A DNA stretch of 64,000 bases from Amphibalanus amphitrite. Taxonomy: Eukaryota > Arthropoda > Thecostraca > Balanomorpha > Balanidae. Below are positions 3,961 through 64,000 of this stretch, piece by piece; the first letter of the stretch is position 1, and the number at the start of each line of letters is the position of its first letter. The notes under the pieces were generated by a model that searched no databases, was not told where the DNA came from, and was given only the letters and a program-made list of their open reading frames with translations. Location of the stretch: positions 1 to 64,000 of the forward strand of contig NW_024882756.1 of assembly GCF_019059575.1 (NCBI RefSeq), read 5' to 3'. Made by a program: the position numbers and the translations under genes.

Positions 3961-4380
3961 TAGGTTGTACAGACACACAAACCCACAGACATACAAACAC
4001 ATATCAGTGACCTTGACCTAACTTGACCTGAAATGGCCTCAGCCAGCCAAAACCTAGTCGGATAGTGTAACAAAGAGGTTCTTGCTGGCTTGGCACCACA
4101 ATACGTCAGCGTCATCGGTATATGATAAGCAGCGCACTTGATATCCAACGGTGACCCCAAACAGCAACATTTTTTGTTTGACCTGACCTGGAAGGTCACT
4201 GACTGACCTGAGAAGGTAAAACTGTGTATCATTGGATTCGTCTCTTCCCAAAAAAATCTTTTTAGTCTTTACCGCGAAGCTCTATCTCCAGCAGGAACGA
4301 AATGGCGCGGGGGTGGCAACCCCCCCCCCCCCCCATGTGCGTTCTAGGATGGGAAAGTGGCATGTGCGGGCGAGGGTTAA
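3960..4380. mobile_element. TTAA-type element, right-end fragment
   Basis: The right end is clear. A G-run, GGCAA and a C14 run are followed by the tag CGCACATG in two copies (seen in reverse complement), then GGGCGAGGG and a terminal TTAA (4377-4380). The body has AGGTCA-type words typical of the complete copies elsewhere in the window. No matching left end was found, so the copy is truncated, with the left limit set approximately at the retroelement border. Confidence 0.6.
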
Positions 4381-5992
4381 ATTGCGTAGTTGAATTCACA
4401 TGCTGAACGAACTTCATCATCGGAACTTGTAGATCGTATAACAAAATGTGACCCGGGTTGCAATGTACAGTACATTCTAGGTATGTCAAGGCGTTAGTGT
4501 GACTGGTTAGTCAATCTGGTTGTGAATTTATCGTTGGTGGGTCCAGTGAATAATTATCAGCTTGTTTACTTTGTGTCTCTTGTTCTGGTGTAATTGCCTG
4601 CATTATCTCTAAGTCATTCGTTCCATAGATATTTTATCTACATGAAGATGCCCATCCAATGTCGAAACACTTTATTTTCTGCCGTCTGACTGCTTTACAC
4701 TCGTGATCGATGGTATCAGCATTCTCCTTGGTAGAAAACGAGTAAAATGAGATGTTCAAAGGTCATCGACCATCACTGTCGTCAAAATATTTCAGTAAAG
4801 TCGTACCCTATTTCGTTTTCGGAAACCTCCTTCGGGGAAATAAATCCAAAGTAAAGCTAAATTTGTCAGTTAAAAGTCGTGAAATCAAGCTCGCACGATG
4901 TTTCAGCTCACATTCCCTAACTTGAATTCCTCCAATGAAACGGCAGGATAATAAGCGTCAGGGCATCTCTATGTATATAAGACCTCTATGATCCGTTCTA
5001 CATGAATGGAAAGATGTGTTCTGGAACAAACGTTGATATTATATCTCTTGATTCACAGGCATGCACATTGACCCAGCAGTGGTGCAAGAATGCGAATGGC
5101 AAGCTCTGCACTGATTCCTCCGTTTTTAGCATTAGTGTTTCGCGTAACTTTCCGTTAAACGGACGGGGCCGCCGCCGGCCCCGGCCGCCGCCGTGCGAGT
5201 CGGCCGCCGCGCCGCTACGGACGACTGGCACACGCCACAAGTGTGATGGATTTTCGGCCAACGCGGCGACACCGGCGTAGCGTTCAATTGGCCGCGCTGC
5301 CCTGACGCTCCGGTGACGGACAGGTGGACCGAGGGCGCCGCCCGCCCATCCCTCCGGACCAGGCCAGGCCGGCCGATCTGAGGGAGGTAGGGAGGAGCCG
5401 CGTGGCTGGCCGAATGGACGGCCGCGCCGGGCCATTGTCACTGATTGTTGGCCATTGTCACTGATTGTTCATTGCCGCACCGAGGTCCGGCGATGTCACC
5501 GGAATGCCGCCACTGGTTTGAGTTTCCGCGAAACCGGCTTGCCCAGAGATGTTTGTCACTGGCATTGCTATGTGCTATTTGTGATGTTCATATATACCAT
5601 TCCCGTTACGGAGTACATATCTTGTTTTGAACGTTAAGTTCCGATATACGAACTGGCCGTCTGAAAAAGAGCCGCACGTGCACGATGCTTGTAGATATTC
5701 CTGACGACCACGAACCGACCACGAATCAGAACTGCGCCTCTCGTAATGGGAGTGCGAGTAGTTGTTGCGAGTTAGAGCTCCTTGGCGAGTGGCTGACTCT
5801 GAACTGACTGACTAAACACCGGTTAGCTGTTTCACCAGCAGTCCCAGTGGAGGGAAGTAGGCCCAGGCGAGCAGGGTGTCGCAGCGTAAGTCCGACGATG
5901 GCGGCGCAGTAGTCGAATGGCGTCCACATTTAGCCGACGAAGGCTGCGCTGAGCGCCATACCCGCCTCACCTTATCTCCGAGTCACGTGTTC
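4381..5992. other. intergenic, no recognised gene
   Basis: Mostly AT-rich unique DNA to about 5140, then a CpG- and GC-rich block (5150-5430). No reading frame here shows a recognisable domain or credible splice borders. GC-rich frames such as the minus-strand one at 4998-5441 are explained by composition. A promoter role for the GC block is possible but unsupported. Confidence 0.4.
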
Positions 5993-6344: not shown

Positions 6345-7620
6345 GTCAGTAGCTCCGGTGCCGGCCCTGCAGTGCTCTGAGAGAGCGTCGAGACCGCCTA
6401 ACCGATTCTGTCCCTAATTAAGGTCTTTGTAAATATGTGTTCATCGTGCATCGTTTGTGATGTGAGCCGCGTGATCAGCTGCTAACTGATAATTTTTACT
6501 GCGATTTTGCTGTGGTCGTTGCTGGCGAATTGTTTAGTAATGTCGTGGCAAGCTGGTTGGGGACGCCCGTCTGGCTGTTCTGTTGACGGAACGCGCCGAT
6601 CGACATGGCATGCAGCCATCCAGCGCCTCAAATCGGCGAATCTGTCCAGCGTGGTCTCAATGGAGTGCTGAGCGGTGCTAAAGGACATGGTTATTTTCAT
6701 GCGTTCTGTTCACAGTTTTGTCGTGGCTGTGCTGTCCGCGGCCGTGCTCCACGGTTGCGACGTCTGCGGCCAAGCTGCCCGCTGCTGAGCTCCGCGGCCG
6801 AGCTGCCAGCGGCCGTGCTCTGCGGCCGTGCTCTGCGGTCGTGCTCTGCGGCCGTGCTTCCCGTGGCTGGGCCCTCCGTGGTCCCGTGATCGTGGCCGCG
6901 GCGAGGGTGCCGCGACCTGCGCGATGCCGTGCGCTGCAGTGATGGCGCCGCGCACTGTGCAGTGATTTTGCCGAGCGCTGCGTACGCGGTGGGTGCCGCG
7001 CGCCGCGCTGTTGAGCGTGCCGTATTCGGACGGTGGCTGCCGCGCGCAGCGTGGTGATTGCTGCGCTCTGCCATGAGTGCCGCTCACTGCCGTGGCCTGA
7101 GTGCCGCGCTCGGACGGAGTGCCACGCGCCGTTGTGTTGCGTCGCCTTCTGCCTTTTGATATGTGCTATCTCCGAATTTAATGTTGCTTGTTGCCGATGT
7201 TCGCTTCTTTTCGTTAAGAGGGTCGGGTATAGTCGGTCGATTTATTCGCACCGTTTGATTTCGTACCGGCTTCTCTTCTGTTTCTTATTGTTTTCTGCGA
7301 TGTCACTTGTCCGATTTTATATCTGATTAATTCACGTCACTTAAGTATTTATTTTATATTGTCATAATAACTTACGGCGCTGTTCCTTTATTTTCTGTTT
7401 AGTTGCAGCCCTAGTACCTTAATTTCCGATGTCTCTTCGGTTTGTTGTCGCTCGCATGTTCAGAGAGTCCTGGTTGGCCGGCGCGAGCGGCGGTTGTGGA
7501 ATACAAGCTCGTCTGTGAAGGTTGTGTGTCGGAGCCGGGTTGGCGAGGCGGGACCCGTCTACATTTCAAACACCATTGCATTTCTCTCATCAAGACGCGT
7601 CGAATGATGAATAATGTGAC
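6345..7620. other. GC-rich to AT-rich intergenic DNA with short minisatellite
   Basis: Overlapping frames on both strands at 6600-7090 come from GCGGCCGTGCTCT-like repetition and are not credible genes. From 7140 the DNA turns AT-rich with no recognisable feature. Confidence 0.4.
6806..6862. repeat. 13-bp minisatellite (GCGGCCGTGCTCT)
   Basis: About four tandem units of GCGGCCGTGCTCT, one with a T change, inside a wider degenerate GC-rich tract (6720-6960). The tandem structure is direct; no function is suggested. Confidence 0.6.
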
Positions 7621-7735
7621 CTCAAACATAGGCGCGGGAACCGGGGAGGGGGCAGTAGGGGCAGCTTGCCCCCCCCCCAACTCTGGGGCCGTGGGGCCGT
7701 GTATCTTATGGTCAGGGCGCGTGTTTGAATTTATT
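7621..7735. mobile_element. degraded end of a TTAA-type element
   Basis: A GGGGCA/TGCCCC hairpin runs into C10 and then AACTCTGGGG, and ends in GGGCGCGTGTTTGAA. In reverse complement this resembles the TTAACACGCGC start of the copy at 21355. The terminal TTAA is degenerate and no partner end was found, so the call is tentative. Confidence 0.35.
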
Positions 7736-7744
7736 TTCGGGGGT

Positions 7745-7904
7745 TGGGTCACTTAACTTGACCTGGTGACCTGACCTTTGATGACCTGGAGCTAAAATTT
7801 TCAAAGCCTGTACGGAAAAGACGTATAATAAGCTGTACCAAACCGTTTTTGAGATGTCAGCGAAAACCTGGGGGGGGGGGGCGTGAAAACGCCGAGCGGG
7901 TTAA
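7745..7904. mobile_element. TTAA-type element, right-end fragment
   Basis: The stretch begins with AGGTCA/TGACCT words homologous to the end of the copy at 58737-59921. It finishes with a G-run, a GCGT/ACGC hairpin and CGGGTTAA (TTAA at 7901-7904). Only this end is present. Confidence 0.55.
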
Positions 7905-10904: not shown

Positions 10905-12598
10905 GTTGTTACATAGATAACATGAACTACCTGGATTGGACACTCGTTTTTGGCGCGAAAAATAAGAGGCCACTTTGGCCTCTTATTTCTAATGACTGAT
11001 TTTCAATCAGCATTTTGAGAGGCCGATATCTCAGCAACCGCTGGGCCGATTGGCCTGCGGTCTTCTTTGTTGGGTAGCCCCATCCTTTCTGCCCCGTAAT
11101 TCACTACTCATGATGCATTCAGGTGACCGTCGTGGCACGTGGCACGTGAAGAGTCGTGGTGTTCAAGTCGTTCTGCTGAAGTAACAATTTTGAGATGCCT
11201 ATATCTCAGCAACCACTGGGGCGATTGACTTGCGGTAACTTTTGTAGAGTAGCTGTATCCCGTCTAACAAACATCATGGATACTCTTGGTGCACGTGAGT
11301 GACCCCCGCTGCACGTGCAAAGTGCAAAAATCAGAAGAGGTGTTAAATCTGTTCCCCTTACAGTAACTCAGCAACTAATGGGGCGAATTCGCTGAAACTT
11401 GGCGTGCATGTAGGCACCCACCGGTCAGTGCATATCCATATGCCATGGTTGGGGTGTTATTGCGCGTGCGCACGTGCAGGGGGTCGCTTCCAGATCTCGA
11501 GAATGGCTGGACCGATTGCGCTCAGATTTGTTACACGATTAGAGATCGGTGAGTAGGGTGCCGTGCGAAAGTAAGTTGGGACCCACATTGCACGTCCGCA
11601 CGTGCAAGGTGCCGCTTCCAGATCTCGAGAACGGCAGGGCCGATTGCGCTCAAATTTGGCACCTTGCAAGAGACCAGTAAGTAGAGTGCCGTGCACCGAG
11701 GAGTTTGTAGCTCTGCGCGTGCTCACGTGCGCACGTGCACACCCCTGTCATATCTCAGGAACGGATCACTGACCGATTGCAATGAAATGTGGTGTGTGAT
11801 TGGATGCTGAATGTGTATGAGCTTTTCTAAGTCGATGAAGGTGAGGTAATGCACGTGCGCACGTGCAGGAGTCACTTCCAGATGTCCAGAACGGCTGGAC
11901 CGATTGCGCTCAAATTTGTTACACGAATAGAGACCGGCGAGTAGGGTGCCGTGCGAAAGTAAGTTGAGACCAACATTGCACGTGCGCACGTGCAAGGTGC
12001 CGCTCTCACATCTGAAGAACGGCTGTGTCGATTGCGCTCATATTTGGCACATCACAAGAGACCAGTAGGTAGGGTGCCGTGCATCAAGGAGCCTGAAGCT
12101 CTACGCGTGCTCACGTGCGCACGTGCACACCCATCCTTCATATCTCAGGAATGGACTGGCCGATTACAATGAAATTTGGTGTGTGATTGGTTGCTGACCG
12201 TGTATGAGTTTTTCCAAGTCGACGAAGTGTGGTAATACACGTGCCGCACGTACATACTGCACACCCCATATTTACAGCTAAAAACGGACAGGCCGATCTC
12301 AGTAAAAGCTGGTGTGCGATTGGGAAATAACAAAGTGCATTTATTGTGTGCTTCAGAATGGGTGTGAATATGGACGAGCGCATGTGCACGTGCCCAACAT
12401 TAACAGCTTAAAAACACTGGAAGGTCGATTGCGATCAAATTTGTCGTGCGATTAGGAGATAAGATAACAAAGTGCATTGACTGTGTGCATCAAAATGGCT
12501 GTGAGTATGCTTGCACATATGAAGGTGCACAACCCATTTTTAGAGCTGAAAAACGGGCAGAGGCTAGTGGTGATCAAATTCGGGTCATAATCGATAAC

Positions 12599-13519: not shown

Positions 13520-14453
13520 TTAACCCGCGAGTTGCTGGGGGGGGGGGCGTTAAACGCCCCCACTTTTTTCGCCGGGTCATAGCATAAAAATGGCGCGCCG
13601 CAGGCGCGCCAAATTTTTGGTACCTGTAGGGAATTGATTGCAGTTTATTGTGACAAAGTTTCAAAAATATCGGTCGGAAAATTTTTGAGATATCGAGGTT
13701 TTAGTGACGTCATGATTTCTGAGTTTTCGACCAAAAACGGCATATGTTCAAAAAATCATATAAAATCACAGAATAAATATACAGACATGCCGTAAACGCC
13801 ATTAGACTGCTAATACCATGAGCAATCTAATGGCTATCTTCGATTATTGATTATTGTTCCGCATTTTCCAAAATCTTGAAATGAATCTTGGCATTTTCTT
13901 GTGACTACCTCACGACCATGATACATGAATTTCTTAAATTGAACTTTTTGAGCCAAACTCGTGCCTACACATATGAGAAAGATAATGTCACCATCGTGTT
14001 CTACGCTCCAAATTACCCATAAAACATGTGTCACAGGCTGCGAATATCAGTTTTGAATTTCGGGGATATGTGCCTACCCGGTTGACCTGACCTTGACCCT
14101 GACCTATGCTTGACTGACCCCTACATGGAGCTGACACTCTTGGAAGCCTTGTATGATGGATTGTGCACCGTTTTGACAGAGTTTATGACGAGAGGCGCCC
14201 ATTGCGAAGTCCTGAAGTCCATGCTACTGAAAGCCCGATTTCCGGTGTTTGACCTGACCTTGACCTGACCTGTGACCTCAAAATTCAACTTTAAAGTACT
14301 CATCTGAAGCGTCTCGTCGCGCTCTTTCGTTTGCCGCCTCGTGCATATCGCTGCGCCTATTGGTTCTCGAGTTATCGGCTGGGGGCGTTTAACGCCCCCC
14401 CCCCCCCCCAGCAAACGGTGGGTGGCGAAATACCCCAGCAACTGCCGGGTTAA
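13520..14453 (+). mobile_element. complete TTAA element (tag GTTGCTGG)
   Basis: TTAA at both ends (13520-13523 and 14450-14453). The left end is TTAACCCGCG, then GTTGCTGG once, then G11, a GCGT/ACGC stem and C5. The right end (reverse complement) is TTAACCCGGCA, GTTGCTGGGG, a ~16-bp spacer, GTTTGCTGG and a long G-run. The body is non-coding with TGACCT words. A piggyBac-type non-autonomous element is inferred from the TTAA target and CCC termini. Confidence 0.75.
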
Positions 14454-14920: not shown

Positions 14921-16082
14921 TCGATTATGACCCGAATCTGATCACCACCAGCCTGCTCGTTTTTCAGTTCTAAAAATAGGCTGTGCATACTCACACTTAT
15001 TTTCTATGCACACAGTCAATGCACTTTGTTATCTTACCTCCTAATCGCACGACAAATTTGATCGCAATCGGCCTTCCAGTTTTCAAGCTGTTAATGTTGG
15101 GCACGTGCACATGCGCACGTCCATATTCAAACCCATTCTGAAGCACACAATAAATGCACATTGTTATTTCCCAATCGCACACCAGCTTTTACTGAGATCG
15201 GCCTGTCCGTTTTTAGCTGTAAATATGGGGTGTGCAGTATGTACGTGCGGCACGTGTATTACCACACTTCGTCGACTTATAAAAACTCATACACGGTCAG
15301 CAACCAATCACACACAAAATTTCATTGTAATCGGTCAGTCCTTTCCTGAGATATGAAAGATGGGTGTGCACGTGCGCACGTGAGCACGCGCAGAGCTTCA
15401 GGCTCCTTGATGCACGGCACCCTACCTACTGGTCTCTTGTGATGTGCCACATATGAGCGCAATCGACACAGCCGCTCTTCAGATGTGGGAGCGGCACCTT
15501 GCACGTGCGCACGTGCAATGTGGGTCCCAACTGACTTTCGCACGGCACCCTACTCGCCGGTCTCTATTCGTGTAACAAATTTGAGCGTAATCGGTCCAGC
15601 CGTTCTCGACATCTGGAAGTGACTCCTGCACGTGCGCACGTGCATTACCTCACCTTCATCGACTTAGAAAAACTCATACACATTCAACGTCCAATCACAC
15701 ACCAAATTTCATTGCAATCGGTCAGTCCGCTCCTGAGATATGACAGAGGGGTGTGCACGTGCGCACGTGAGAACGCGCCGAGCTACAACCTCCTCAGTGC
15801 AAGCACTCTACTCACTGGTCTCTTGCGAGGTGCCAAATTTGAGCGCAATCGGCCCAGCTGTTCTCGATATCTGGAAGCGGCACCCTGCACGTGCGCACGT
15901 GCAATATGGGTCCCAACTGACTTTTGCACGGCACCCTACTCGCAGGTTTCTAATCGTGTACCAAATTTGAGCGCAATCGGTCCAGCCGTTCTCGAGATCT
16001 GGAAGCGGCTCCCTGCACGTGCGCACGTGCAATAGCACCCCAACCATGGCATATGGATATGCACTGACCGGTGGGTGCCTAT
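14921..16082. repeat. right-arm modules of the foldback element
   Basis: Inverted counterpart of about 11400-12600. CACGTGCGCACGTG-type boxes recur near 15240, 15368, 15499, 15627, 15754, 15885 and 16014, about 125-130 bp apart. Between them are variants of ATCTCGAGAACGGCTGGACC followed by CGATTGCGCTCAAATTTG. Frames through these modules give repetitive conceptual peptides that I do not accept as genes. Confidence 0.7.
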
Positions 16083-17875: not shown

Positions 17876-18577
17876 TACGGAGCGAGCGAAGCGAGCGTAG
17901 TCTTTCCTTAGATTAACGGAAATTTCTGAGTATGAGCGGCCGGCCGGCCGGCCGGCCGGCCGGCCGGCCGGCCGTGCGGACGCTTTTGCGAGGCTTATAT
18001 CTCAGCAACCACTTGACCGATTTACACGGGGTAATTTTTGTAGGGTAGCTTCATTCCTTCTACCAAGTATTGGACTATTCCCGATGCATGTGGGTGACCC
18101 CTTTTGCACGTGCCACGCGCAAAACGAAGAGGTGTCAGTTTTGTAATTGTTGCAATATCTCGGTAACTACTTGGCCGATTGCGCTGAAAGTTGGCATGTA
18201 GGTAGGCACCCACTAGGCACTGCATATCCATATGCCAGAGTTGGGGTGCTGCTGCACGTGCGCACGTGCAGGGGTCGTTTCCAGATCTCGAGAACGGCTG
18301 GACCGATGTCGCTCAAATTTGGTACACGGTTAGGGACCAATTAGTAGGGTGCCGTGCAAAAGTCAGTTGGGACCCATTCTGCACGTGCGCACGTGCAGGG
18401 TGCCGCTTCCAGATCTCGAGAACGGTTGGGCCGATTGTGCTCAAATTTGGCACATCGCTAGAGATCGGTTAGTAGGGTGCCGTGCACAAGTCAGTTGGAG
18501 GTACCCCCTCGAAATTTCGCACGTGCAAGGCTCACCCTCTCGCTCGCTCCGTTACTCGCCCCAAAAGGCGTTATACT
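17876..18577 (+). mobile_element. 0.68-kb GGAGCGAGCGA repeat, copy 1
   Basis: Runs from TACGGAGCGAGCGAAGCGAG to AGGCGTTATACT. Contains a (CCGG)n run of about nine units, the ~100-bp CTTATATCTCAGC unit and two CACGTGCGCACGTG modules 124 bp apart. It ends with CTCGCTCGCTCCGTTA, making subterminal inverted repeats. Non-coding. Confidence 0.7.
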
Positions 18578-18583
18578 GGTTAT

Positions 18584-19259
18584 TACGGAGCGAGCGAAGC
18601 GAGCGAAGTCTTTCCTAGATAACGGAAATTTCTGAGTATGAGCGGCCGGCCGGCCGTGCGGACGCTTTTGCGAGGCTTATATCTCAGCAACCACTTGACC
18701 GATTTACACGCGGTAATTTTTGTAGGGTAGCTTCATTCCTTCTACCAAGTATTGGACTATTCCCGATGCATATAGGTGACCCCTTATGCACGTGCCACGT
18801 GCAAAACGAAGAGGTGTCAGTTTTGTAATTGTTGCAATATCTCGGTAACTACTTGGCCGATTGCGCTGAAAGTTGGCATGTAGGTAGGCACCCACTAGGC
18901 ACTGCATATCCATGTGCCAGAGTTGGGGTGCTGCTGCACGTGCGCACGTGCAGGGGTCGTTTCCAGATCTCGAGAACGGCTGGACCGATGGCGCTCAAAT
19001 TTGGTACACGGTTAGGGACCAGTTAGTGGGGTGCCGTGCACAAGTCAGTTGGGACCCATTTTGCACGTGCGCACGTGCAGGGTGCCGCTCCCAGATCTCG
19101 AGAACGGCTGGGCCGATTGTGCTCAAATTTGGCACATCGCTAGAAACCGGTCAGTAGGGTGCCGTGCACGAGTCAGTTGGAGGTACCCCCTCGAAATTTC
19201 GCACGTGCAAGACTCACCCCCTCGCTCGCTCCGTTAGTCGCCCCAAAAGGCGCTATACT
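18584..19259 (+). mobile_element. 0.68-kb GGAGCGAGCGA repeat, copy 2
   Basis: Same structure as copy 1 and in the same orientation, separated from it by only GGTTAT. The CCGG run is much shorter (about two units). The very close spacing suggests tandem duplication or insertion next to an existing copy. Confidence 0.7.
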
Positions 19260-19367
19260 GGTGTATAAATTGCTATAAGTTGCTATAAGTTGTTATATAG
19301 CTGAATTACCGAGAAAACTGGTAGACGCAAATTTATTTCATAGACGACCAACTTTCATCAAAATTAT

Positions 19368-20044
19368 TACGGAGCGAGCGAAGCGAGCGTAGTCTTTCCT
19401 TAGATTAACGGAAATTTCTGAGTATGAGCGGCCGGCCGACCGTGCGGACGCTTTTGCGAGCCTTATATCTCAGCAACCACTTGACCGATTTACACGCGGT
19501 AATTTTTGTAGGGTAGCTTCATTCCTTCTACCAAGTATTGGACTATTCCCGATGCATGTGGGTGACCCCTTATGCACGTGCCACGTGCAAAACGAAGAGG
19601 TGTCAGTTTTGTAATTGTTGCAATATCTCGGTAACTACTTGGCCGATTGCGCTCAAAGTTGGCATGTAGGTAGGCACCCACTGGGCACTGCATATCCATG
19701 TGCCAGAGTTGGGGTGCTGCTGCACGTGCGCACGTCACAGGGATCGATTCCAGATCTCGAGAACGTGTGGACCGATGGCGCTCAAATTTGGTACACGGTT
19801 AGGGACCAGTTAGTAGGGTGCCGTGCACAAGTCAGTTGGGACCCATTCTGCACGTGCGCACGTACAAGGTGCCGCTTCGATCTCGAGAACGGCTGGGTCG
19901 ATTGTGCTCAAATTTGGCACATCGCTAGAGACCGGTTAGTAGGGTGCCGTGCACAAGTCAGTTGGAGGTACCCCCTCGAAATTTCGCATGTGCAAGGCTC
20001 ACCCTCTCGCTCGCTCCGTTAGTCGCCCCGACAGGCGCTACACT
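19368..20044 (+). mobile_element. 0.68-kb GGAGCGAGCGA repeat, copy 3
   Basis: Third direct copy, about 108 bp after copy 2. Here the CCGG run is almost absent. One CACGTGCGCACGTG box is altered, and a short loss lies near 19879 compared with copies 1 and 2. Confidence 0.7.
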
Positions 20045-20182
20045 GGTTTCTAGGTACATGGCTTCTATATTTCCAGACTCTCCTCAGCTCGTATAACTAC
20101 CTATTCTATTTTATTTTCCTATATTTACAATTCCTCAGGTAGGTATATGTAGACGACTTGTCAGGAATTATAACTGAAATAG

Positions 20183-21358
20183 TTAACCCGCTCCGGGCCG
20201 GGGGGGTGTTTGAACACCCCCCTTGCTGTTTTTCGCAGATATCTCAAAAACGGCGGCGCGGAGCGCCGCCGTTTTTGGCACACTTGTTTGTGCATCTTTT
20301 CCGCACATGTTGTGAAAATTTCAGACCCAGGTCACCTTAGGTCAGGTCACCAGGTCACGCCAAGTGACCTCACCTCAGAAAAAATAAGAATGCTCGTCAT
20401 AGCTACACCGACTGAACGATTGCCTCGAAACTTTCAGCGATTGATTAGAGCAACACTATCTGAAAAATGTATATCTCGGAATTTTGATATCGGTGACTTA
20501 AGGTCAGGTCAGTTTTGCGGCCTCTCCATTATAAGTCAATGGGAGAAAATTGAAAAGCGTCTGTTTTGCACGAACGCTATTCTAGACACTCTCAAACATC
20601 GAGATGTAGGTAAAATAGACACACTGAACCAGAAAATGGCAACTGTGACCCCTCGTTATGTCCCCGAGGTCATCTCAGGTCACGAACAGAATCTTACAGT
20701 TTTTCGATGATAACTTCTGATAGAGGAGTGCTAGAGCGCTGAAAACGCCTTAGTTGTGTTCGGCTCGACGTTGCGGATCGACTGATATGCAACATGACCT
20801 TTTCCGGTCAGGTCATGACCTTGACCTGAGGTCAAATTTTCAAGTTGACCTTTCAAGGTCAAATTATAGTTCATTCGACGCGTCTCGACGAGAGGAACAC
20901 GATGCTAGCAAAAGTAATGTCATAGCTCTTTTGAGTCAAAAGTTATTGCCGAAAAACCGTTTTTCGTAAAAACGGCTATTTTTGGAGTTTTTGCCCTCTG
21001 GAGGCTAAACTGTTGACCTGAGGTCAAATCTGAGAACATTACTCAGAAAGGTCTGTAAAAGGGCTATCGAATGCGCTTTTTTTGCAGCGCTGTAGCTCTA
21101 TCGGTTCCCGAGATAGCCGTTGGCAGTTTCCAAAATGTTGAAATAGTCAACATTTTACCTTTGGTGACCTCTGGTGACCTGACCTTTGACCTGACCCAAA
21201 AAATGACCCAAGTGTTTTCGTCCTTATTTTGACGTTCTTTCGATTGCCGCTTACCGCGTGTCGCTACGTGGCCCAGGAGCCAAGTTAGAAGGGGGGGTGT
21301 TCAAACACCCCCCGCGGCCCGGCGCGGAATCTCAGAGCACCGGCCCGGCGCGGGTTAA
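20183..21358 (+). mobile_element. complete TTAA element (tag GCGCCGGGCCG)
   Basis: TTAA at 20183-20186 and 21355-21358. The left end has a single tag (CTCCGGGCCG), then G7 and a perfect GTGTT/AACAC hairpin. The right end carries the identical hairpin and, in reverse complement, GCGCCGGGCCG twice around a ~14-bp spacer. The body has a GGCGGCGCG/CGCCGCC hairpin next to the single-tag end and many AGGTCA words. No coding frame with a domain was found. Confidence 0.8.
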
Positions 21359-22388
21359 CACGCGCACTGCAGGGGGGGGGGTTGTTTTCAACCCCCCTGT
21401 GGTTTTTCGCAAATCGCGAGAAAACGGCGGCGCGTAGCGCCGCCAAATGTTGCATACCTGTTCTCCCAACTTTTGCACACCTTGAGTAAAAATTTTGACC
21501 CCAGGTGACCTATGGTCAGGTCACCAGGTCAGGTCAAGTGACCCTACCTCGAAACGTAAAGTTCGAAGTTTGCAATCCCACCAAGCCCACAGTTGTTGAG
21601 ATATGATCTTGAAACCCACAGGAAATAGTAAAGTCATCACGAGCTACAACTTGTATATCTCGGAATTTTTATATCGATGACCTAAGGTCAGGTCATTTTT
21701 GCGACCGGCCCATTATAAGTCAATGGGAGAAATTTCAACTTACTCTGAATGCCATCCTATGACTTCAATACGCTCAGGATCATAGTATTACAGGTCCCTG
21801 TTGGTGATTTCACCGAAACCTATCACTTATGACCTTTGGAAGGTGATCTCCAGGTCATCTTAGGTCACCTGAGGTCACCAGCGGTTTTTCTTCAATAACT
21901 TGAGATTGAATAGAGATAGAGACTCCGTTCGACGTTTATCGTGTTTTTCTCGTCAATGCGGATCGAATGATATGCAACATGACCTATTTCGGTCAGGTCA
22001 TGACCTTGACCTGAGGCCAATTTTTCAACTTGACCTTTCGAGGTCATATCATATATCATTCGATGCGCCTTGACGAGCTAAGAACGATGGCGTTCGAATC
22101 GATCCTCTGTCTTGTGTGCAAGACAAGTTATTCAAGAAAAACTACCGCGAAATTCCTGTTGTGAAAATCGTAACATTTTGTCTTCGGTGACCTCTGGTGA
22201 CCTCGTTTTTGACCTGACCCAAAAATGATCTTAGTATTTCTTGTAGATCTCATCTCAACCTATCCAACGCCGTTTACCGCTTGTCGCTACGTTGCGCCGT
22301 TTTCGAGATCTCAGGGGGGGGGGGTTGTTTTCAACCCCCCCCCCTGCAGTTCGTGTTCGGCTCAGACCCGCTGCAGTGCGCGTGTTAA
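21355..22388 (+). mobile_element. complete TTAA element (tag ACTGCAG), shares TTAA with its neighbour
   Basis: Starts in the TTAA that ends the previous element and finishes at TTAA 22385-22388. The left end is TTAACACGCGCACTGCAG with one tag; the right end, inverted, has ACTGCAG twice about 20 bp apart. G10 with a TTG/CAA stem and a C-run lies next to both ends. The body is clearly related to the preceding copy (for example around 21640-21740 against 20460-20550) and in the same orientation. Termini differ from the neighbour's. Confidence 0.8.
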
Positions 22389-23154
22389 TACATCGCACGG
22401 CGATTTGTATACCTAACAGCACATCATCGGTGTTTAAAACTTATTTGGAAAATATTATTCATATATCCAATACAATGTGCGCTAACCAGTCTTCTCAATA
22501 AATCAGCTAGAAAATCTCGTGTTGTGTTCAAAAAGAAGTTTGCAGTGTGGGTCGAACTTAACCCGCGCCCGTATTGGTGTTTTTCCCATCCGCGAACGTA
22601 TAAGGGGGGGGGGGGGGGCGTTGGACCCCCCTTGCCGTTTCGCCCCTGATCAAGCTATACCTCCACAGAAAAACGAGCGTGTTGCCCGTGACGAGAGGAA
22701 GCCGATGATACCCAATTTTAAGCCAAGGTCCTCGGTCCTTGGTTGACCTTCCAGGTCAGGTCAATGACCCAAAAGTCGGGAAAATCGGGACCTGTTAGAA
22801 CGTCGTAAAGTGTGGCACCTATGGGGGTTTTCAGGGTGCTGATCACGAAAACCATGATGGTTTTGATCACAGATAATGTCTTCATGCATTTAGGCCAGGT
22901 CGAACCAGGTCAGGTCAGGTCAACCAGTATCTAGGGGTCGTGACGGGTATTCGTAGTACCTGTCATCCGACTCTGACAGCTTTGTAACATGTTACGAAGG
23001 CATGCTAAATATACTTTGTAAATGTTCTGATGGTTGCTAAATTCGAATTCAGCTCCAAAAACCAGCCTAGAAACATGTGAAACTCGAAAAAGTGAGCCGT
23101 GGTCATCAAAGGTCAATGACCTGACCTGACCTTCAGGTGACCTTGACATCCACT

Positions 23155-24616
23155 TTAAAGGGACTATCCCACCTTCTAAAATGTTGTTAAAACCAGTTAA
23201 ATTGTGCCCGACTTTATAGATTGGATGACCAGGAACACGGTTCTGGCATTTATTTTTCATTAAACATCTTAGGCTTCCCATATTCCAAGCACAAACATTC
23301 AAATATGTGACGTCACAGCCCAAAATTACCTCCTTCCCCAGGCCACATTACTGTCATAAAGCTGATTCTTTTTACTCTGTAGGCACCACAATAAAGTTCA
23401 GACCAAGTTTTAAGCGATTTTTCAACGAACAAACCCATTTAAATCAGAATGACTAAACGAGGTGACGTCACACTAACGGTCGCTCCATGTTGAAGATCGG
23501 GCCTTGTACAAGGCCCATTTTCAAATGAAGGGAACGAATTTCTTCAACACCAAGAGGCCGCGGGGGTTGCAACCTAGATAGATAGTGGTTTCTGAACCTC
23601 GCCGCAAACTTGGCTATCTCAACTCAAACCCCATGTTAACCCTCGCCCGTAAACGGCGATCTGCCACCTTCACCCATGCAGGGGGGGGGGGGTTGGTGCG
23701 ACCCCCCCCCCCCTTTGGCGTTTGAAAACGGAGCGTTGTAGAGCTTAGCGGAAAAGACCAACGGATTGCTCTCGCCGAGATCTCGCGATTGGTGGTATAT
23801 TTTTTGGTCCTAGGTCAACATTTGACCTACTTTTGACCGGTCAAAGGTCAAATTTTCGGAAAAATAGACTTTTTTTCAACTTTCCGCGGCCATTGCGGCA
23901 AAACGGTAGGAGATATCGACTTGAAACCTTCACTATCGTGTTCCTTGATCAATTCTCTATCGTTTGGTATGTATTTCGTTTCCCTAGCTCTAAAAATGGC
24001 GCGTTGGGAGCGCCGGAAGTCGGCAAGGTCACAGTCGGCGGCATAAATTCGAAAAATCAAAATTTAAATTTTTGAAATCTGATTGTATTTTTGGATTTGG
24101 GAGGTCCATTTGCTCCCTATAGAAGCTAATATTGCTGCATATTCCCATTGAGGTGACAAGAATTAGCAAAATAGTGGTTCGGGCGCTTTTCAAAAATAGT
24201 ACCGGACGCTGTTCCTCTTGTGACGTCATAGCTCCGTGGCCTGACCTGACCCGGTCAAGTTTCTTATACCATATGATAGCCAATACTTGCCCCAACATGC
24301 ATGGGAAGTTTCATCACGATCCATCAACCGATGTCCGTACCACCGGCAGGAAACCTCGGGCGTTGGCACTCAGTTTGTGAAAATCCGGCCGGAGGCTGTT
24401 CCCTTTGTGACGTCATAACTCCGTGACCTGACATGACCCGGTCAATTTTTTTATCAAAAGATGCGCAAGGTTTGCCCCATAAGGTACCCAAAATTTGGCG
24501 GCGCTGCGCGCCGCCGTTTTTGCACTATTCCCGAAAAACCTCAGGGGGGGGGGGGGGGTTGCACCAACCCCCCCCCCCTACATGGGCGAGGGTTAAACAT
24601 GGGATAGTCCCTTTAA
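23155..24616. mobile_element. TTAA element with AGGGACTATCCC inverted ends
   Basis: TTAAAGGGACTATCCCA at 23155 is matched by the inverted sequence ending at 24616. The right inverted repeat lies only about 20 bp from the inner element, which inserted close to this end. It lacks the G-run hairpins and so belongs to a different TTAA-target family. Confidence 0.6.
23636..24596 (-). mobile_element. innermost TTAA element (tag CCCATGTAGG)
   Basis: TTAA at 23636-23639 and 24593-24596. The left end has two tag-like words (CCCGTAAACGG and ACCCATGCAGG); the right end, inverted, has CCCATGTAGG once. G12/C12 and G15/C11 hairpins flank. The body is almost identical to the copy at 32523-33470 in the DAAM intron, including CGGTCAAAGGTCA, yet the outer ~75 bp differ. 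Confidence 0.8.
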
Positions 24617-24890
24617 TGCATGCAGGCAACATCATATCACATGTTTGAACGCTTGAAACCACGAAAAGACTGCAAACGCGCGGCTAATGCGAGACGACAT
24701 GCGCCGAATCACGATTCCGGCTAAACATGGTCTCGAAAAGTAGGTCACAGGTCAAAGGTCATTTGGGTCTGGGTCATGAAATTTTTAGAGAATGTGTTAT
24801 ATTGATTAACTCGAGGGTACTGAAAGTTTCGTCGCGATCGGCCTCTTTTTACGCGAGTTATTTGCGAAAAACCGAGAGAGGGTGTTCGGC

Positions 24891-25235
24891 AGCGGCGTCG
24901 ACGCGTAAGGAAAACTGGTCCGACTTTTTCTCGGGGGGCCCCCACCGGTGGGGGCCCCCAGGGGCCCCCGTGGCCGCAGCAGGGCCCCCCGAGAGCCCCA
25001 ACAGGGGCCCCCCGCGGCCGCAGAAGGGGACCCCGCGGGCCGCAGCAGGGCCCCGCGGTGTCTAGCAGGGCCCCAGAGGCGCAGCAGGGCCCCCGCGGTC
25101 TCTAGCAGGGCCCTCCGAGCCGCAGTAGGGCCCCCGCGGTCTGCAGCAGGGGCCCCCGCGAGCCACAGCAGGGCACCGCCTAGTCGAAAAAGTGGTCCGA
25201 CTAGTCGGAAAAGTCGGACCGGTGTCGACGCCCCT
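24891..25235. mobile_element. 345-bp element with 10-bp target duplication
   Basis: GGTGTTCGGC occurs perfectly at 24881-24890 and 25236-25245. Between them the ends are AGCGGCGTCGAC and, inverted, AGGGGCGTCGAC, followed by subterminal GGTCCGACTTTTTC. The interior is a ~25-bp GC-rich minisatellite (units like CCGCGGTCTGCAGCAGGGGC). A 9-10-bp duplication with inverted ends suggests a Mutator-like non-autonomous element; this is inference. Confidence 0.65.
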
Positions 25236-25272
25236 GGTGTTCGGCCCCGCCCCCTATACGGGCGAGGGTTAA

Positions 25273-26379
25273 AAAACGAAATTCCATTTTTTGGCAAAGT
25301 TATGTTCTCAAAATGGTTTAAGTCAAATGTTCAAACTCAATTTTAGCAGTTCTAGCCCACGTAGGTACCTAACGAAAAACAAAGACCACCGTTAGATTGT
25401 CCGTCGCGAGCTGCATCGAATAACTAGGTAGGTAGGTATCCTTTTTATGCAAAATATCAACTTTGAAATGTAATGATTTTCCTTTTTTACAATAACTTGA
25501 CCTAACCTCCACTAGAGCGTAACCTAAACTGGCTCTTATGGTCGCCTAACCCACACCATTGAATTTGTAATGTAAAATTGGCCACAAAGCATGTTATATC
25601 TAACCTAGCAATGACATGAAACATGGGTTACAAAACGAATAGTGCGAAGACTATTTGTTTGTATAGTCGGGTTCATATTAGGCCTTCTCACGACGGCTAT
25701 CTGGTACAGATTTGATGCACATTAGATGCGGGTTTGTTGCAGATTTGGTCAAATTAGGTTAATTGTGTTTCTTAGAAGTTATCATCTTGGGTTGAAGAGT
25801 TACTTATATACCTGTTTGTTTTAACTATCAGACATTATTTACTAATAAAACACTGAAATAAAATCATGATATGAAGATTTTTGCTATAAAAGAGATTTGG
25901 TGCAGATTTGGTCAAATTTGGTGCATTCGCCAATCGCCAGAAAGCCCGTCGCGAAAAGAGATAGGTACTGTAACCTTAGTGACCAGACCTTGGCCAGGCA
26001 AAGCCCATACCGGTAATTTGGCGTTTTTTTTTTGCTTGGGGCGTGGTAGCATGCCGGTATCCCAGAAAATTTTTGTGGGGCGGGGCGGTGCCGGTAGCAG
26101 CCCATTGGGAAAACTTTGCAACTCTAGTCCTTGTGTTTCTGATTGACAGATAGGTAACAGAGCCTTCGCGTATCAGCGATTAAAAAAACTCATATGGTTT
26201 AAAGAGAGAACAGTAAGTTAGAATCGTTGTACCTACTACCTACCTTTCCACGAAGGTCAGCCGGCCTTGACAGATACGGACTAAAACAGCTGTTACTTCT
26301 CACACGGAGTTCAGGAACCGTTCAGGTAAGTGGAGCCGCTGCCAGTAGATCTCTGCGAGTGACCTGAGCAGCAGTGGTT
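25273..26379. other. intergenic, upstream of the carboxypeptidase
   Basis: AT-rich unique DNA. CAGGTAAGT at 26321-26329 is a perfect donor consensus about 55 bp before the start codon and could end an untranslated first exon, but no matching acceptor between it and the ATG is convincing. No TATA box was located with confidence. Confidence 0.35.
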
Positions 26380-27768
26380 ATGGTGTCGCCCTCATTGGCA
26401 GCCCTGCTTCTGGCGCTGGTGCTGGTGTGCAGGGCTCACGGCTCCGCCGACCCGGGCGAGCCGCTGTTCCTGACCCCGCTGATCGAGGCCGCGGAGCTGC
26501 AGCAGGCCCGCGAACAGAGCAGGGTGCTCGGCCTTCCCGGCGCCGGCGCCAATGTCACCAGTCACTCCGGCTTTATCACCGTCGACAAGGAGCGCAACTC
26601 GAACCTCTTCTTCTGGTTCTTCGAGTGTCAGCAGGCGTCTCCGCTCGAGGCTCCAGTTCTGCTCTGGCTACAGGGTGGCCCGGGCGCTTCAAGTCTCTAC
26701 GGCCTGTTTGCAGAAAATGGCCCATTCAGTGTCGACACTGATTTGAATCTGGTTGCTCGTAACTTCAGCTGGAGCAATACCCACAACCTGCTGTATATCG
26801 ACAATCCCACAGGCACAGGATTCAGCTTTACCTATGACGAGCAAGGCTTTGCCAGGAACGAGGAAGACGTGGCTCGTGATCTGTATTCGGCTCTTACGCA
26901 GTTCTTCACCGCATTTGAGAAGTTCCGTGACAATGAATTTTACGTGTCCGGGGAGTCGTATGCAGGCAAGTATCTGCCAGCAATCGTCAACAAGATTCAC
27001 GTGGAAAACCCAACAGCCGAGGTGAAAATAAACCTGAAAGGCATGGCGATCGGTGATGGATTCGTCGATCCAATCAATCAGGTGGACTACAGTGAGTACT
27101 TCTACAATGTCGGATTGGTTGACGCCAAACAAAGCGAACAGTTCCACGACGTAGCCACGCAAACCGTGGATCTGATCAACCAGGGGGATCTGGCGGAAGC
27201 ATTTCTACTGTGGGACACTGTGTTGATCGGCACGGTCTCTCCCTACCCGACACTCTTCCAGAACATAACGGGATTCACCAACCAGTACAACTACCTGCAG
27301 CCGAACGACGCAGGAAACGACCCATTCAACGACTTCCTGAAACTGCCGGCCACGCGAGCTTCCATCCACGTGGGGAACTTGCCCTACAACGAAGCTGTCG
27401 ACGCCGTGATCCACTACATGATCAGTGACGAGATGAACACGACCAAGCCGCTGTTGGCCAGTGCCCTGGACGCCGGCTATCGAGTGCTCATCTACAGCGG
27501 CCAGCTGGACATTTGTGTGCCGTACCCGCTGACGCAGCGGTGGCTGGCCTCGATGGAGTGGCACGGCGCCGAGCAGTACCGGGACGCCGAGCGTGTCATC
27601 TGGCGCGAGCGGGGCGAGATCGCCGGCTACGTGCGCCAGGTGGACAACCTGTATGAGGTGCTGGTCCGCAACAGCGGCCATATGGTGCCCACCGACCAGC
27701 CAGAGGTCGGCTATGCGCTCATCACTAGGTTCACGGGCACATACGGAGCGCAGGGGTGGCAAGACTGA
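26380..27768 (+). CDS. secreted serine carboxypeptidase, S10 family (CPVL-like), intronless
   Basis: Intact 462-residue protein from ATG at 26380. A GTG six bases upstream is in frame, but ATG is the sensible eukaryotic start. Residues 1-21 form a signal peptide (hydrophobic ALLLALVLV core). The fold landmarks of peptidase family S10 are present: the oxyanion segment LWLQGGPGASS (about 95-105), the nucleophile in GESYAGKY (Ser193), the aspartate in YSGQLDICVP (Asp377) and the histidine in NSGHMVPTDQP (His434). Several N-glycosylation sequons (NVT, NFS, NIT, NTT) fit a secretory or lysosomal enzyme removing C-terminal residues. Length matches the family. Related animal genes usually have introns and this one has none in its coding region, so it may derive from a retrocopy, though all catalytic residues are kept. 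It is convergent with DAAM, 890 bp away. Substrate is unknown. Confidence 0.95.
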   Translation: MVSPSLAALLLALVLVCRAHGSADPGEPLFLTPLIEAAELQQAREQSRVLGLPGAGANVTSHSGFITVDKERNSNLFFWFFECQQASPLEAPVLLWLQGGPGASSLYGLFAENGPFSVDTDLNLVARNFSWSNTHNLLYIDNPTGTGFSFTYDEQGFARNEEDVARDLYSALTQFFTAFEKFRDNEFYVSGESYAGKYLPAIVNKIHVENPTAEVKINLKGMAIGDGFVDPINQVDYSEYFYNVGLVDAKQSEQFHDVATQTVDLINQGDLAEAFLLWDTVLIGTVSPYPTLFQNITGFTNQYNYLQPNDAGNDPFNDFLKLPATRASIHVGNLPYNEAVDAVIHYMISDEMNTTKPLLASALDAGYRVLIYSGQLDICVPYPLTQRWLASMEWHGAEQYRDAERVIWRERGEIAGYVRQVDNLYEVLVRNSGHMVPTDQPEVGYALITRFTGTYGAQGWQD

Positions 27769-31900: not shown

Positions 31901-34900
31901 GTTCAAAAAAGTCACCTCGATCACCTGACTTCTCTATGTGAAACGTACACCTGTGGTGGCTCATCAAGCGATCGGCCTCCCTCGCTCCTTTCACCCTTTC
32001 TCCCTCTCTCAGACACTCACCAGGCCGTTCTGCCGCTGATAGGCCGAGAATGTCCTGTCCACGTCCGCCAGGTCAATGCAGCTGTACAGACGCTCCTCGT
32101 CTAGGTCGTTCCAGATCGTTCCGCCAATACGGTGGGCCGGCAGCTTGGACCAGTTAAAGCTCTTGAGCGGGTTGCCAGCCTTCGGCACCTTCTTCTGCTT
32201 CACCGGAGGAGCGTGCCCGTTGAGGAGGGGTGGTGGTGGGGGCGGCACTCCGCCGGGCGGCGGGGGCGGGGGCGGGGGCGGAGGCGGCGGCGGCGGTCCG
32301 GCGCCGGCAGAGGTGCGTGATGGTAGGGTGCTGATCTTGGCCTCATCTGTGATAGCGGCCTCCTTCAGACTGCGTCCCGAGCTGTACTGCAGCTCCTGAA
32401 GCCGCTGGATAGCCTGTAGGTGACCTGGGGACGCAGGAAGGTATTGGTGCGGTTAGATACCTAAAAAGTACTTCAACAGACTAATGGGCTTAAATAAATA
32501 TCGCAAATAACTAGCATCAATATTAACCCTCGCACGACCAGGCCATTTCTCATAAAACGAACGACCAGGGGGGGGGGGGTGTTACGACCCCCCCCCTGGC
32601 GTTTCGAAACGGAAGGTCGTAGAGCTTAGCGGAAAAACCCAACGGATTGCTCTCAACGAGATCTCGCGATTGGTGGTATATTTTTGGTCCTAGGTCAACA
32701 TTTGACCTACTTTTGACCGGTCAAAGGTCAAATTTTCGGGAAAATAGACTTTTTTCAACTTTCGGCGGCGATTGCGGCAAAACGGTGGGAGATATCGACT
32801 TGAAACCTTCACTATCGTGTTCCTTGATCAATTCTCTATCGTTTGGTATGTATTTCGTTTCCCTAGCTCTAAAAATGGCGCGTTGGGAGCGCCGGAAGTC
32901 GGCAAGGTCACAGTCGACGGCAGAAATTCGAAAATTCAAAATTTAAATTTTTAAAATCTGATTGTATTTTTGGATTTGGGAGGTCCATTTGCTCCCTATA
33001 GAAGCTAATATTGCTGCATATTCCCATTGAGGTGACAAGAATTAGCAAAATAGTGGTTCGGGCGCTTTTCAAAAATAGTACCGGACGCTGTTCCTCTTGT
33101 GACGTCATAGCTCCGTGACCTGACCTGACCCGGTCAAATTTCTTATACCATATGATAGCCAATACTTGCCCCAACATGCATGGGAAGTTTCATCACGATC
33201 CATCAACCGATGTCCGTACCACCGGCAGGAAACCTCGGGCGTTGGCACTCAGTTTGTGAAAATCCGGCCGGAGGCTGTACCTCTTATGACGTCATAACTC
33301 CGTGACCTGACATGACCCGATCAATTTTTTTTCGGCAAAAGATGCGCAAAGGTTGCCCCAGAAGGTATTGAAAATTTCAGCCCGCTACGACAAGCCGTTT
33401 AGCGTGCACTTCTAAAAAACCTCAGGGGGGGGGGTTGATACAACCCCCCCCCTAGGCGTTCTAGGGTTAATACCGTCACAGGACTCTGAATATGAGCAAA
33501 ATAAGTTAGTTTGTGTATGGTTCGCATAACGCTGAAAATCACTGATTAAAATTGTACCGGCTACAGATGTAGAAAAAAACTTTATGAAGTACTTATCGCA
33601 ATGCTTATGAATCTATTTGTTACGATATGTACGACACGTTGAGCTTCACTACATGCTTATGACATACCCATGGACTCGGTCTCAAACTTCTCCTGGAGAC
33701 GACTGAGACTGGTGCTGAGGTCGTCACGCTCCTGAGTCCTGATGTCACACTCCTGCTCCTTTTCGCTGAGCTTAGTCATCAGGTCGAGGTTCTCCTTCTC
33801 CAGGTCCTCGGCCTTGGTGAGCGCACCTCTCAGCTCCTCCTCCTTGGCAAGCCTGAGGGCACAAAGGTCGGTGACGGGTCAGTTTGCCAGAAGAACGCGC
33901 AGCCTGGCTAGATATTCCCTAAAATGCATGAAACCGTCGAGGTTTTGCAGTCAGTATCTCACTGGCCATAGAAACGGTATCAACTGGTCACATTTCATAT
34001 CTTCCTCTTTCTTAGATTGAACGCTTGAGAGTGTATATGTGGGCTCGGTTGTTACGCTAACCAGAGCTGTTCCGAGTGACATCATGAGTCCACTATTAAA
34101 CCTTGCTGTTTGCTTAGCATGTTCCTATAGAAACTTCTTTAGCAAACGCTACTCACATCTGTACGAGGTTGTTGACGTTGATGTCGGTCGGCCGCAGGTC
34201 GCAGTCCTCTCCGTTCTCTGATTGGAGGATCAGCTGCTGACAGATGCGGTCGAACAGGAGCCAGTGCTGAGGATACGACCCATAGTCCACTGCGAAACAG
34301 CAAAAATGGCGAACCTCCAGTCAAACAGGTGGATATCAATTTTACATTGTCGGTTGCTACGGAATATTTTTAGCTTTATACCGATACACTGGTTGCAAAT
34401 TTCAACATCATCCGATAAAACAAACTGTATATCGTCGTAAGAGAAGTTGGAGTATCGGACAAAACAGCTAGTGACGACTCACGAGGCAGCAGGAGGCAGT
34501 GTTGTAGCAGAGACAGCAGGTGAGGATAGGCCGCTGTGTTGTTCAGCTTGGTCCTGAGGAGCTCGAACATGGCTGACGCCGACTTGGTGTCCACGTGAAT
34601 CTCCTCGTACCGTTTGGCCAGTTCCCGCTCGTCGTCCGTACGAACGAGCTCGAAAAAGTCCAGATGCCTGAGAGCACAAGCGCAGCAAGTTAGGTGACGT
34701 TCGCATCTACCTATATTGAGATCCCACGTCAAGCCATGTTCATTGTTCACCCTTGGAAACATGCATGCATCGTTAAATGTTTACACGAACGTTACGCCTT
34801 ACCAATCTACAAAATTAATCAAATATCCTTATTTTACGACTAGTTATACTCGTTGGGATTGTCGAGTTGACTGATCTGGTTCCACGACACCGAACTGAGG

Positions 34901-58736: not shown

Positions 58737-59921
58737 TTAACCCGCGCCCCAGTGGCGGTCTCAGCCAACTTCGCCCTAGTGGGGGGGGGGGGCATATGTT
58801 ACCACCCACCTCTAACTCAAAAACTAAGAGGGATAGAAAGACGCGGTAAAAAGCAGTCGATAGCTCTCAATGCGTACGTTTGAAAGTATTTCGGTCATTT
58901 TTCACCTTTGAGCAATATTGGGGTCACCAGAGGTCATCAAAGGTCAAAATTTGCCAATGTCATTATATTTTTCAGAAAACATGTCCCTATCTCAGGAACT
59001 ATGGTAGCTAGAAAAACGCATGGAACAGAAAACGATAGCTTTTTAGCTCTTCTTTTGAAAAGGTCATTATCAATATTGACCTCAGGTCAACGGTTTAGCC
59101 TCCAGAGGGCAAAAACTCCAAAAATAGCTGTTTTTACGAAAAGTGTTTTTCGACAATAACTTTTGACTACAAAAAGCCACGGCATTTCTATTGCCAGAAT
59201 CGTGTTCCCCTCGCCGAGACGCGTCGAATGAACTATAATTTGACCTTGAAAGGTCAACTTGAAAATTAGACCTCAGGTCAAGGTCATGACCTGACCGGAA
59301 AAGGTCATGTTGCATATCAGTCGATGCGTCTCGGTAAGACAAACACAATGAGACCATCCCCAGCGATCTATCTCTTTCCAATCGCGAGTTATTGGCAAAA
59401 ATCTGTTTGTAGCCTCAAATGACCTCGGATGACCTTTCTAGAGGCTATCAGCAAAAATGACACCCTGGTCATCACGGGTGGTCCAAATCATTGTGATTCT
59501 GAAATATTTGGACTGTTCCCATGCGTACACACGGATCTAGAGGCATTTTCATTTTTCTCCATTGCCTTATAATGGTAAGGTCACGCCACTGACCTGACCT
59601 TAGGTCACGGATATGAAAAATCCGAGATATACAAATTGTAGGCGCCCATAACATCATGCAATCCACCAAGTTTGAAACCTTTCTGACAAACACTGCAGGC
59701 TGGACATGATTGCAAACTTTTTTTTAGGCTTGGTCAGTTTACTTGACCTGGTGACCTGACCTGACATGACCTGGGGTCAAAAATTTCACACATTGTCCAA
59801 AATTGATGTACAAAAAGCTACCCCAAGCGGCGCGGCGCTACGCGCCGCGCTTTTTTATTTACACGCGAAAAACGCGACAGGGTGGTAACATATGCCCCCC
59901 CCCCACTGGGGCGAAGGTTAA
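58737..59921 (-). mobile_element. complete TTAA element (tag CGCCCCAGTGG) inside the hAT
   Basis: TTAA at 58737-58740 and 59918-59921. The left end has CGCCCCAGTGG and CGCCCTAGTGG around a ~16-bp spacer; the right end, inverted, has CGCCCCAGTGG once. Both ends share a GCATATGTTACCACCC sequence after the G-run. The body is the inverse of 20183-21358 (for example 59090-59330 against 20760-21010). Confidence 0.8.
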
Positions 59922-63087: not shown

Positions 63088-64000
63088 TTAACGCGCGCCC
63101 CGCTGGGGGGGGGGGCAGAATCTGCCCCCCCTCCCGTTTTTCGCCAATAACTTCTAAACGCGTTACGCCAGCGACGTCAAACTTTCAGTACCTTATCATA
63201 CATCAATTTGACACGTTCCCTGAAAATTTGAGCAAAATCCATCGGAAATTTTTTGAGATATTGACGTTTTAGTGACGCCATGTTCGCCATTTTCGCCTCA
63301 AAAACGGCAAAATTTCAAACGCCGCTAACATCTTCATTTTTAAAGGAATCAAGACGTAACAAAAAAGGTTATACGTGATTCTACTTTGTCTATCAAATGT
63401 TTATCTCGATTTTTTGAAAATTTTGGATTTTGGCCAAAATTTTTCCAAAAACTGACTTTTTTGGGAAAATATTTATAAAATCCAAAATTTTGAGTTAATC
63501 GAAAAAAACGGAATATATGTCAAAGAAGTGGTCTATGTGCACCTACATACCAATTTTTAGAAGAATCGGTTCAAAAATGTGGGAGTTATTCAAAATTTTA
63601 TGTCGTCACGACACACAAAATTTTTGAAAAAAATGATTTTTTTGGAAGTTCTAGACCTCGTACGGAAACAAAAATAGCACCATTCGATTCGCCGTGAAAA
63701 ACTGCATCGGATAGACACCTTTTTAAGCCTTAACAACCAACTTCAAAATTTGACCTCACTTGACCTGACCTTGACCTGACCTCGACCTGAAATTCATCCA
63801 CAGGTAGTCCATATCACTTATTGAGTGTGCCTATTGAATTCCATGAGTAAAATGACCCATAAAACATGTGTCGCACATGCCCTTTTCTATATTTTGTTTT
63901 TGGTGACCTGACCTGACCTGACCTGACCTGACCTTGACCTTGACCTTTGAATGACATTGTGTGCAACGAATATTGTCTTGGTAGTCTAAGAACACGTTTT
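63088..64000. mobile_element. TTAA element running off the window
   Basis: TTAACGCGCGCCCCGCTGG, then G11 with a GCAG/CTGC stem and a C-run, opens the element at 63088. Body words (TTTTTCGCCAATAACTTC, dense TGACC repeats to 63950) match the family. Only one tag copy is seen at this end; the other end is outside the window. Confidence 0.65.
63903..63950. repeat. (TGACC)n tract
   Basis: At least six TGACC units in tandem, then TTGACC units. Equivalent to overlapping AGGTCA half-sites on the other strand. Confidence 0.85.

Follow-up and report, generated by a model that had tools for sequence, protein, structure and literature searches.

Matched end sets that differ around near-identical middles in piggyBac-like elements of Amphibalanus amphitrite

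The closest described relative of the elements treated here is the piggyBac transposon of Trichoplusia ni, whose two ends are not built alike. Base pairs (bp) 34-63 of its right end (RE) nearly repeat bp 7-35 of its left end (LE), with an offset of 27 bp, and these lopsided ends are called puzzling in the structure paper (PMC7351741). A duplicated motif at one end is not universal in the piggyBac superfamily, since the piggyBat element of Myotis lucifugus differs (PMC11707139). In this report, we focus on one stretch of 64,000 nucleotides of Amphibalanus amphitrite (NW_024882756.1, positions 1-64,000; hereafter the window), which contains seven complete, TTAA-bounded, non-coding elements of 934-1,758 bp, nested DNA excluded. 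We will argue that these are probably non-autonomous elements resembling miniature inverted-repeat transposable elements (MITEs), with piggyBac ends of the T. ni type, and that recombination has probably moved their bodies between families of ends that differ in the transposase they suit.

The TTAA is present at both edges in 7 of the 7 bounded elements, and the inventory given by the first-pass annotation, seven bounded copies and a lone doubled right end at 4380, is borne out. With positions numbered from the first base following the TTAA, the tip is CCC in 11 of the 14 ends; the TTAACCC-like start once attributed to all copies holds for these but not for E3, which has TTAACAC at both ends, nor for the left end of E9, which has TTAACCT. 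At the left end, the tip is followed by a few common bases, then by a tag private to the copy (about bp 7-13, its core at about bp 7-12) and by a palindrome consisting of a G-run, a loop and a C-run, with arms of varying length. At the right end, the order is tip, outer tag, spacer, second copy of the tag and palindrome. The palindrome begins at bp 14-15 in six of the seven left ends (that of E4 is unrecognisable) and at bp 41-43 in all seven right ends. The second tag has its best self-offset at 27 bp in seven of nine right ends and at 26 bp in E2; in R12858, a weak right-type end at 12864, the best value, 36, scores at chance level only, and this end was counted as a miss. Eight of the nine right ends have their best offset at 26-27 bp and none of the seven left ends does, as expected from the earlier statement that the doubled tag always sits at the same body end, and the summed offset score is 74, against a mean of 56.2 and a maximum of 66 in 2,000 shuffles.

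This arrangement can be laid over the LE35/RE63 ends of T. ni piggyBac point by point: a TTAA target, a CCC tip, a single motif with its palindrome on the left, a motif-spacer-motif with its palindrome on the right, and the 27-bp offset (PMC7351741). Six copies have readable palindromes, whose best centres fall at bp 25.5-30 on the left (the E9 value resting on a low score) and at bp 52.5-60 on the right, near the bp 25 and bp 53 that a palindrome finder gives for T. ni. The palindromes are thus placed like the site of the T. ni cysteine-rich domain, and would be the predicted site of such a domain here. In contrast to T. ni, the letters of motif and palindrome are wholly different, the palindrome arms consist of G-runs and C-runs that vary in length, each copy has a motif and loop of its own, and the elements have no transposase gene inside. 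Judged from their letters, namely the TTAA, the CCC tip, the asymmetric ends and the palindrome, they probably belong to the piggyBac superfamily as non-autonomous members. The first-pass annotation was right to see a likeness to the unequal ends of piggyBac, and the likeness is stronger than it claimed, the offset being that of T. ni; it knew of no described system of this form, but single and double tags 27 bp apart are published T. ni anatomy (PMC7351741). The likeness to piggyBat is looser: its ends, too, are made up of a short core motif with an imperfect palindrome after it, arranged differently on left and right (PMC11707139, PMC13405395), but there are three left-end motifs at 44-bp spacing and the right end is without such a palindrome. 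In the same sources, the piggyBat ends are synapsed by an outer and an inner transposase dimer.

The matching of tags within a copy was assessed on 13-bp windows of the seven copies under 5,040 relabellings, the true pairing included; R12858 was left out, as were the ends without a partner (R4374 on the right, and three of left type close to 7904, 10310 and 63088). The own partner was the best match in 7 of 7 copies, ties allowed. Left and outer right tags agree at a mean of 10.57 of 13 positions within copies and 6.29 between them, the observed sum being reached in 2 of the 5,040 permutations. The corresponding means are 10.29 and 6.19 for left against inner right tags, and 9.71 and 5.74 for outer against inner right tags, each with 1 of 5,040 permutations. 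The last of these tests is partly circular, since the offset of the inner tag (27, or 26 for E2) was itself set by maximising the match between the outer and inner tags of these ends, whereas the comparison of left with outer right tags uses no offset. Over the 6-bp cores, 106 of 126 positions match within copies and 134 of 378 between all copies.

The core is AGTTGC in E1 (13520..14453, forward strand, with the single-tag left end at 13520 and the doubled right end at 14453), CCGGGC in E2 (20183..21358, forward, left end at 20183), CACTGC/AACTGC in E3 (21355..22388, forward), CCCGTA/AACGTA in E4 (22558..25272, reverse, doubled right end at 22558 and left end at 25272) and CCCCAG/CCCTAG in E9 (58737..59921, reverse, right end at 58737 and left end at 59921). 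In E5 (23636..24596, reverse, right end at 23636 and left end at 24596) it is CCCATG at the left and inner right and CCCGTA at the outer right, and in E6 (32523..33470, reverse, right end at 32523 and left end at 33470) it is CACGAC/AACGAC on the right and AACGCC on the left. The claim that both ends of a copy carry the same tag consequently holds well above chance, and fails for the outer right tag of E5 and the left tag of E6. The loop of the palindrome, on which the first-pass annotation made no remark, is likewise private and for the most part shared by both ends in the six copies used for this test, from which E4 was excluded because its left palindrome is unreadable: 2 of 720 permutations do as well in the same orientation and 1 of 720 in either orientation. 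In E2 the loop is TGTTTGAACA at both the left and the right end; in E3 its orientation is flipped between them. Left and right tags of these seven copies match far above random pairing, which is not what ordinary divergence, the alternative named from the outset, would give.

The likeness between the two ends of a copy has a well-placed limit. Tip and tag are alike (1 of 720 permutations), and so is the loop (2 of 720); over the 20 bp that follow the C-run there is no left/right matching (-0.12 within copies, -0.12 between, 423 of 720 permutations as good), and over the next 40 bp the likeness is not clear (72 of 720). By analogy, the matched unit would be about the stretch that a piggyBac transposase contacts. 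As the matching halts right after the palindrome, it points to a matching imposed by the transposase and not to wholesale copying of one end, so that recognition-imposed matching is favoured and the early suggestion that one end is copied from the other is not. We regard such a concerted copying as unlikely. In that scheme one end would template the other, either through gene conversion or through a switch of template from one inverted end to its counterpart, with the G-run/C-run palindromes assisting, and a change at one end would spread to its partner. The tag and loop are indeed shared as a single block, and E3, with its unusual CAC tip at both ends and the same loop flipped, is what one would expect; short-tract copying may for this reason have taken place. 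However, besides the abrupt end of the likeness, the inner right tag matches despite the different spacers that surround it, and copying alone leaves unexplained how different ends come to flank a middle that is 98% identical.

This last situation is that of E5 and E6, which are at different loci, their flanks being different. Their alignment covers 903 columns and extends into both subterminal regions. In the middles, 626 of 638 aligned sites are identical (98.1%), the 12 differences being 7 transitions and 5 transversions. At the ends, identity is 72 of 109 sites on the left and 27 of 50 on the right (45 of 77 and 15 of 38 with runs and tips masked), and of the 60 differences in 159 sites, 18 are transitions and 42 transversions, the proportion found between sequences that share no ancestry. 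The spacer and the subterminal DNA have also changed, and the tag cores are alike at 5 of 18 positions; the zones between middle and ends are identical at 72 of 82 and 58 of 67 sites. Tags do not track bodies in E5 and E6, and the possibility raised at first, that they simply follow body relatedness, does not hold so far as a sample of seven copies shows. MITEs usually have the opposite pattern, with ends that resemble one another more closely than the middles do. A milder case is given by E2 and E9, aligned over 818 columns into both subterminal regions, with a core identical at 218 of 239 sites and outer 200-column stretches at 132 of 197 and 118 of 194. Finally, the 62 bp of left subterminal DNA of E5 are closer to E3 (51 of 62) than to E6 (38 of 62), while the body of E3 does not align with that of E5.

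Part of this had precedents. The asymmetric architecture is known, as are end types that are two per genome in Pokey and the mPok MITEs of Daphnia (PMC3849761) and terminal inverted repeats (TIRs) that diverge between elements in the piggyBac families of compact animal genomes (PMC10813416). Pokey and mPok also represent the piggyBac superfamily in a crustacean, with MITEs, but their two inverted terminal repeat types go with two sequence clusters, whereas E5 and E6 have a shared middle and different ends. In the survey of compact genomes, the left and right TIRs of one element resemble each other, those of different elements diverge, and the CCC start is kept, as here; it deals with full-length elements, MITEs excluded, and its available sections note no discordance between body and ends. 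What is new here is that tags are decoupled from bodies and that matched end sets differ around near-identical middles. Among the titles and abstract openings that searches of an open-licence library brought up, we recognised no report of MITEs whose almost identical bodies lie between different matched ends, nor of a joint change of tag and palindrome with the 27-bp geometry held constant.

One could imagine that the ends of a single lineage have simply mutated faster than its body, under selection to escape silencing or in an arms race with the transposase. The four body-homologous pairs of copies match at 25 of 72 tag-core positions and at 512 of 789 positions of their inner flanks, which is in line with such a process. 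Yet, with 12 differences in the middle of E5 and E6 against 60 at their ends, most of them transversions, and with altered spacer and subterminal DNA too, point mutation would hardly have had the time to make such a number of substitutions concertedly at three sites, and we consider this explanation quite improbable. A third proposal, that independent piggyBac families each gained the same GGTCA-rich repeat as filler, in which case the body common to them would be a repeat of its own and nothing would have been exchanged, agrees with the density of GGTCA/TGACC in all seven bodies, including those that do not align, and with TIRs matching within an element and differing between families being the normal state (PMC10813416), but we find it very improbable, as both E5/E6 and E2/E9 align into their two subterminal regions and the end architecture is common to all copies.

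The exchange of bodies among end families by recombination would proceed as follows. Within a transposase dimer, the core would recognise the tag and the paired cysteine-rich domains the palindrome, while the extra right-end tag would be recognised by a second dimer located further in. A single transposase would then have to accept every tag and both palindromes of a copy, so that their matching would be imposed by mobility, and the different tags would imply that several transposase specificities have acted in this genome. Ectopic gene conversion or recombination between copies may swap bodies between end sets: a conversion tract running over the homologous middle would stop where the end modules lose homology, and one event would therefore place the same middle between different matched ends. 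Recombinants with mismatched ends would seldom move again. It is possible, and we put it forward tentatively, that separate piggyBac recognition codes coexist in one genome, in which tag and loop change together, the 27-bp geometry is kept and bodies are passed on by recombination. The fast-changing recognition code suggested by the first-pass annotation is still a live idea.

Several observations weigh against the exchange of bodies. The outer right core of E5 mismatches its other two tags, the left tag and loop of E6 differ from its right ones, and the left palindrome of E4 cannot be recognised. The identity between E5 and E6 decays over about 70-85 columns on each side, with no sharp breakpoint. 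The link between E5 and E3 is weak (Fisher p 0.016), all the more so as Fisher values treat positions as independent, although they are not. Body exchange is supported by two body groups only, and the sample is seven copies from a single window. Moreover, none of the 32 open reading frames (ORFs) of at least 150 amino acids in the window has a Pfam match to a piggyBac transposase domain, the sole matches among them being PF17921, PF03564 and PF00450.

Searches with the patterns of the elements did not extend the family. The end pattern gave 0 stretches in viral_contigs and 9 in genome_contigs; the latter are prokaryotic and have no G-run/C-run palindrome within 100 bp after the match, and were for this reason taken as chance. 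The interior pattern gave 0 in viral_contigs and, within the window, is found only in E2, E3 and E9, the body of E9 being related to those of E2 and E3.

The elements are closely packed in places. E2 and E3 have one TTAA in common (21355-21358), and E5 is nested inside a TTAA of E4, its host. Near its left end, E4 also contains a G+C-rich tandem array of units of about 21-22 bp (24959-25174), which may have displaced its usual left subterminal DNA. The lone doubled right end, R4374 (4178..4380, forward, TTAA at 4377-4380), has tags 27 bp apart and, aligned with the right end of E4 over 215 bp, resembles it at 68%. A partial copy at 7565..7904 (reverse) has a left-type end at 7904 without a clear tag and body pieces like E2, E3 and E9; a right end was looked for there and none was found. 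Another partial left-type end lies near 10310, and that at 63088..64000 (forward) has TTAACGCGCGCCCCGCTGG, then the G-run palindrome and E1-like body pieces, and extends past the window edge. A second G+C-rich palindrome (GGCGGCGCGNAGCGCCGCC-like) is found in the left subterminal regions of E1, E2, E3, E5 and E9 (for example at 20251-20268, 21425-21445 and 24496-24516); E6 is without it, despite its middle. Some of the hairpins of a sigma-70 promoter and terminator scan, which is unsuited to such DNA, are palindromes of the elements.

As for the rest of the window, GGTCA/TGACC occurs 131 times in the 7,996 bp of the elements, against about 14.5 expected from base-composition shuffles, and is also dense at 4001-4500 and 63501-64000; we take this pentamer to resemble a nuclear-receptor half-site. 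At 42133-43150, inverted arms of 321 bp, 97% complementary, surround a 376-bp core that resembles the interior of E2, E3 and E9; an element of another kind may here enclose the same body. Repeats of about 128 bp, tandem and inverted and related to one another, bear CACGTGCGCACGTGCA-like motifs and are found in both orientations at 11459-12082, 15243-16038, 17961-20052 and 37447-38130. The window also holds a serine carboxypeptidase gene and retroelement-like domains, a content of eukaryotic appearance: its ORFs at 322-3058 (reverse) and 26368-27768 (forward) comprise Integrase_H2C2 and DUF1759 domains, a combination presumably as in BEL/Pao-type retroelements, and a Peptidase_S10 ORF of 466 amino acids.

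If recognition codes are indeed separate, the ends of these elements would represent the lineage and the bodies would be passengers, contrary to how MITEs are usually seen. So far, explanations of the lopsided piggyBac ends have drawn on few elements. The natural copies described here keep the succession of motif, 27 bp, motif and palindrome while the letters change jointly at all sites, and so provide independent evolutionary evidence that the inner right site is read with the same specificity as the tips. If autonomous partners are found, matching each transposase to its ends would reveal the evolution of piggyBac recognition, and might yield transposon systems without cross-reaction.

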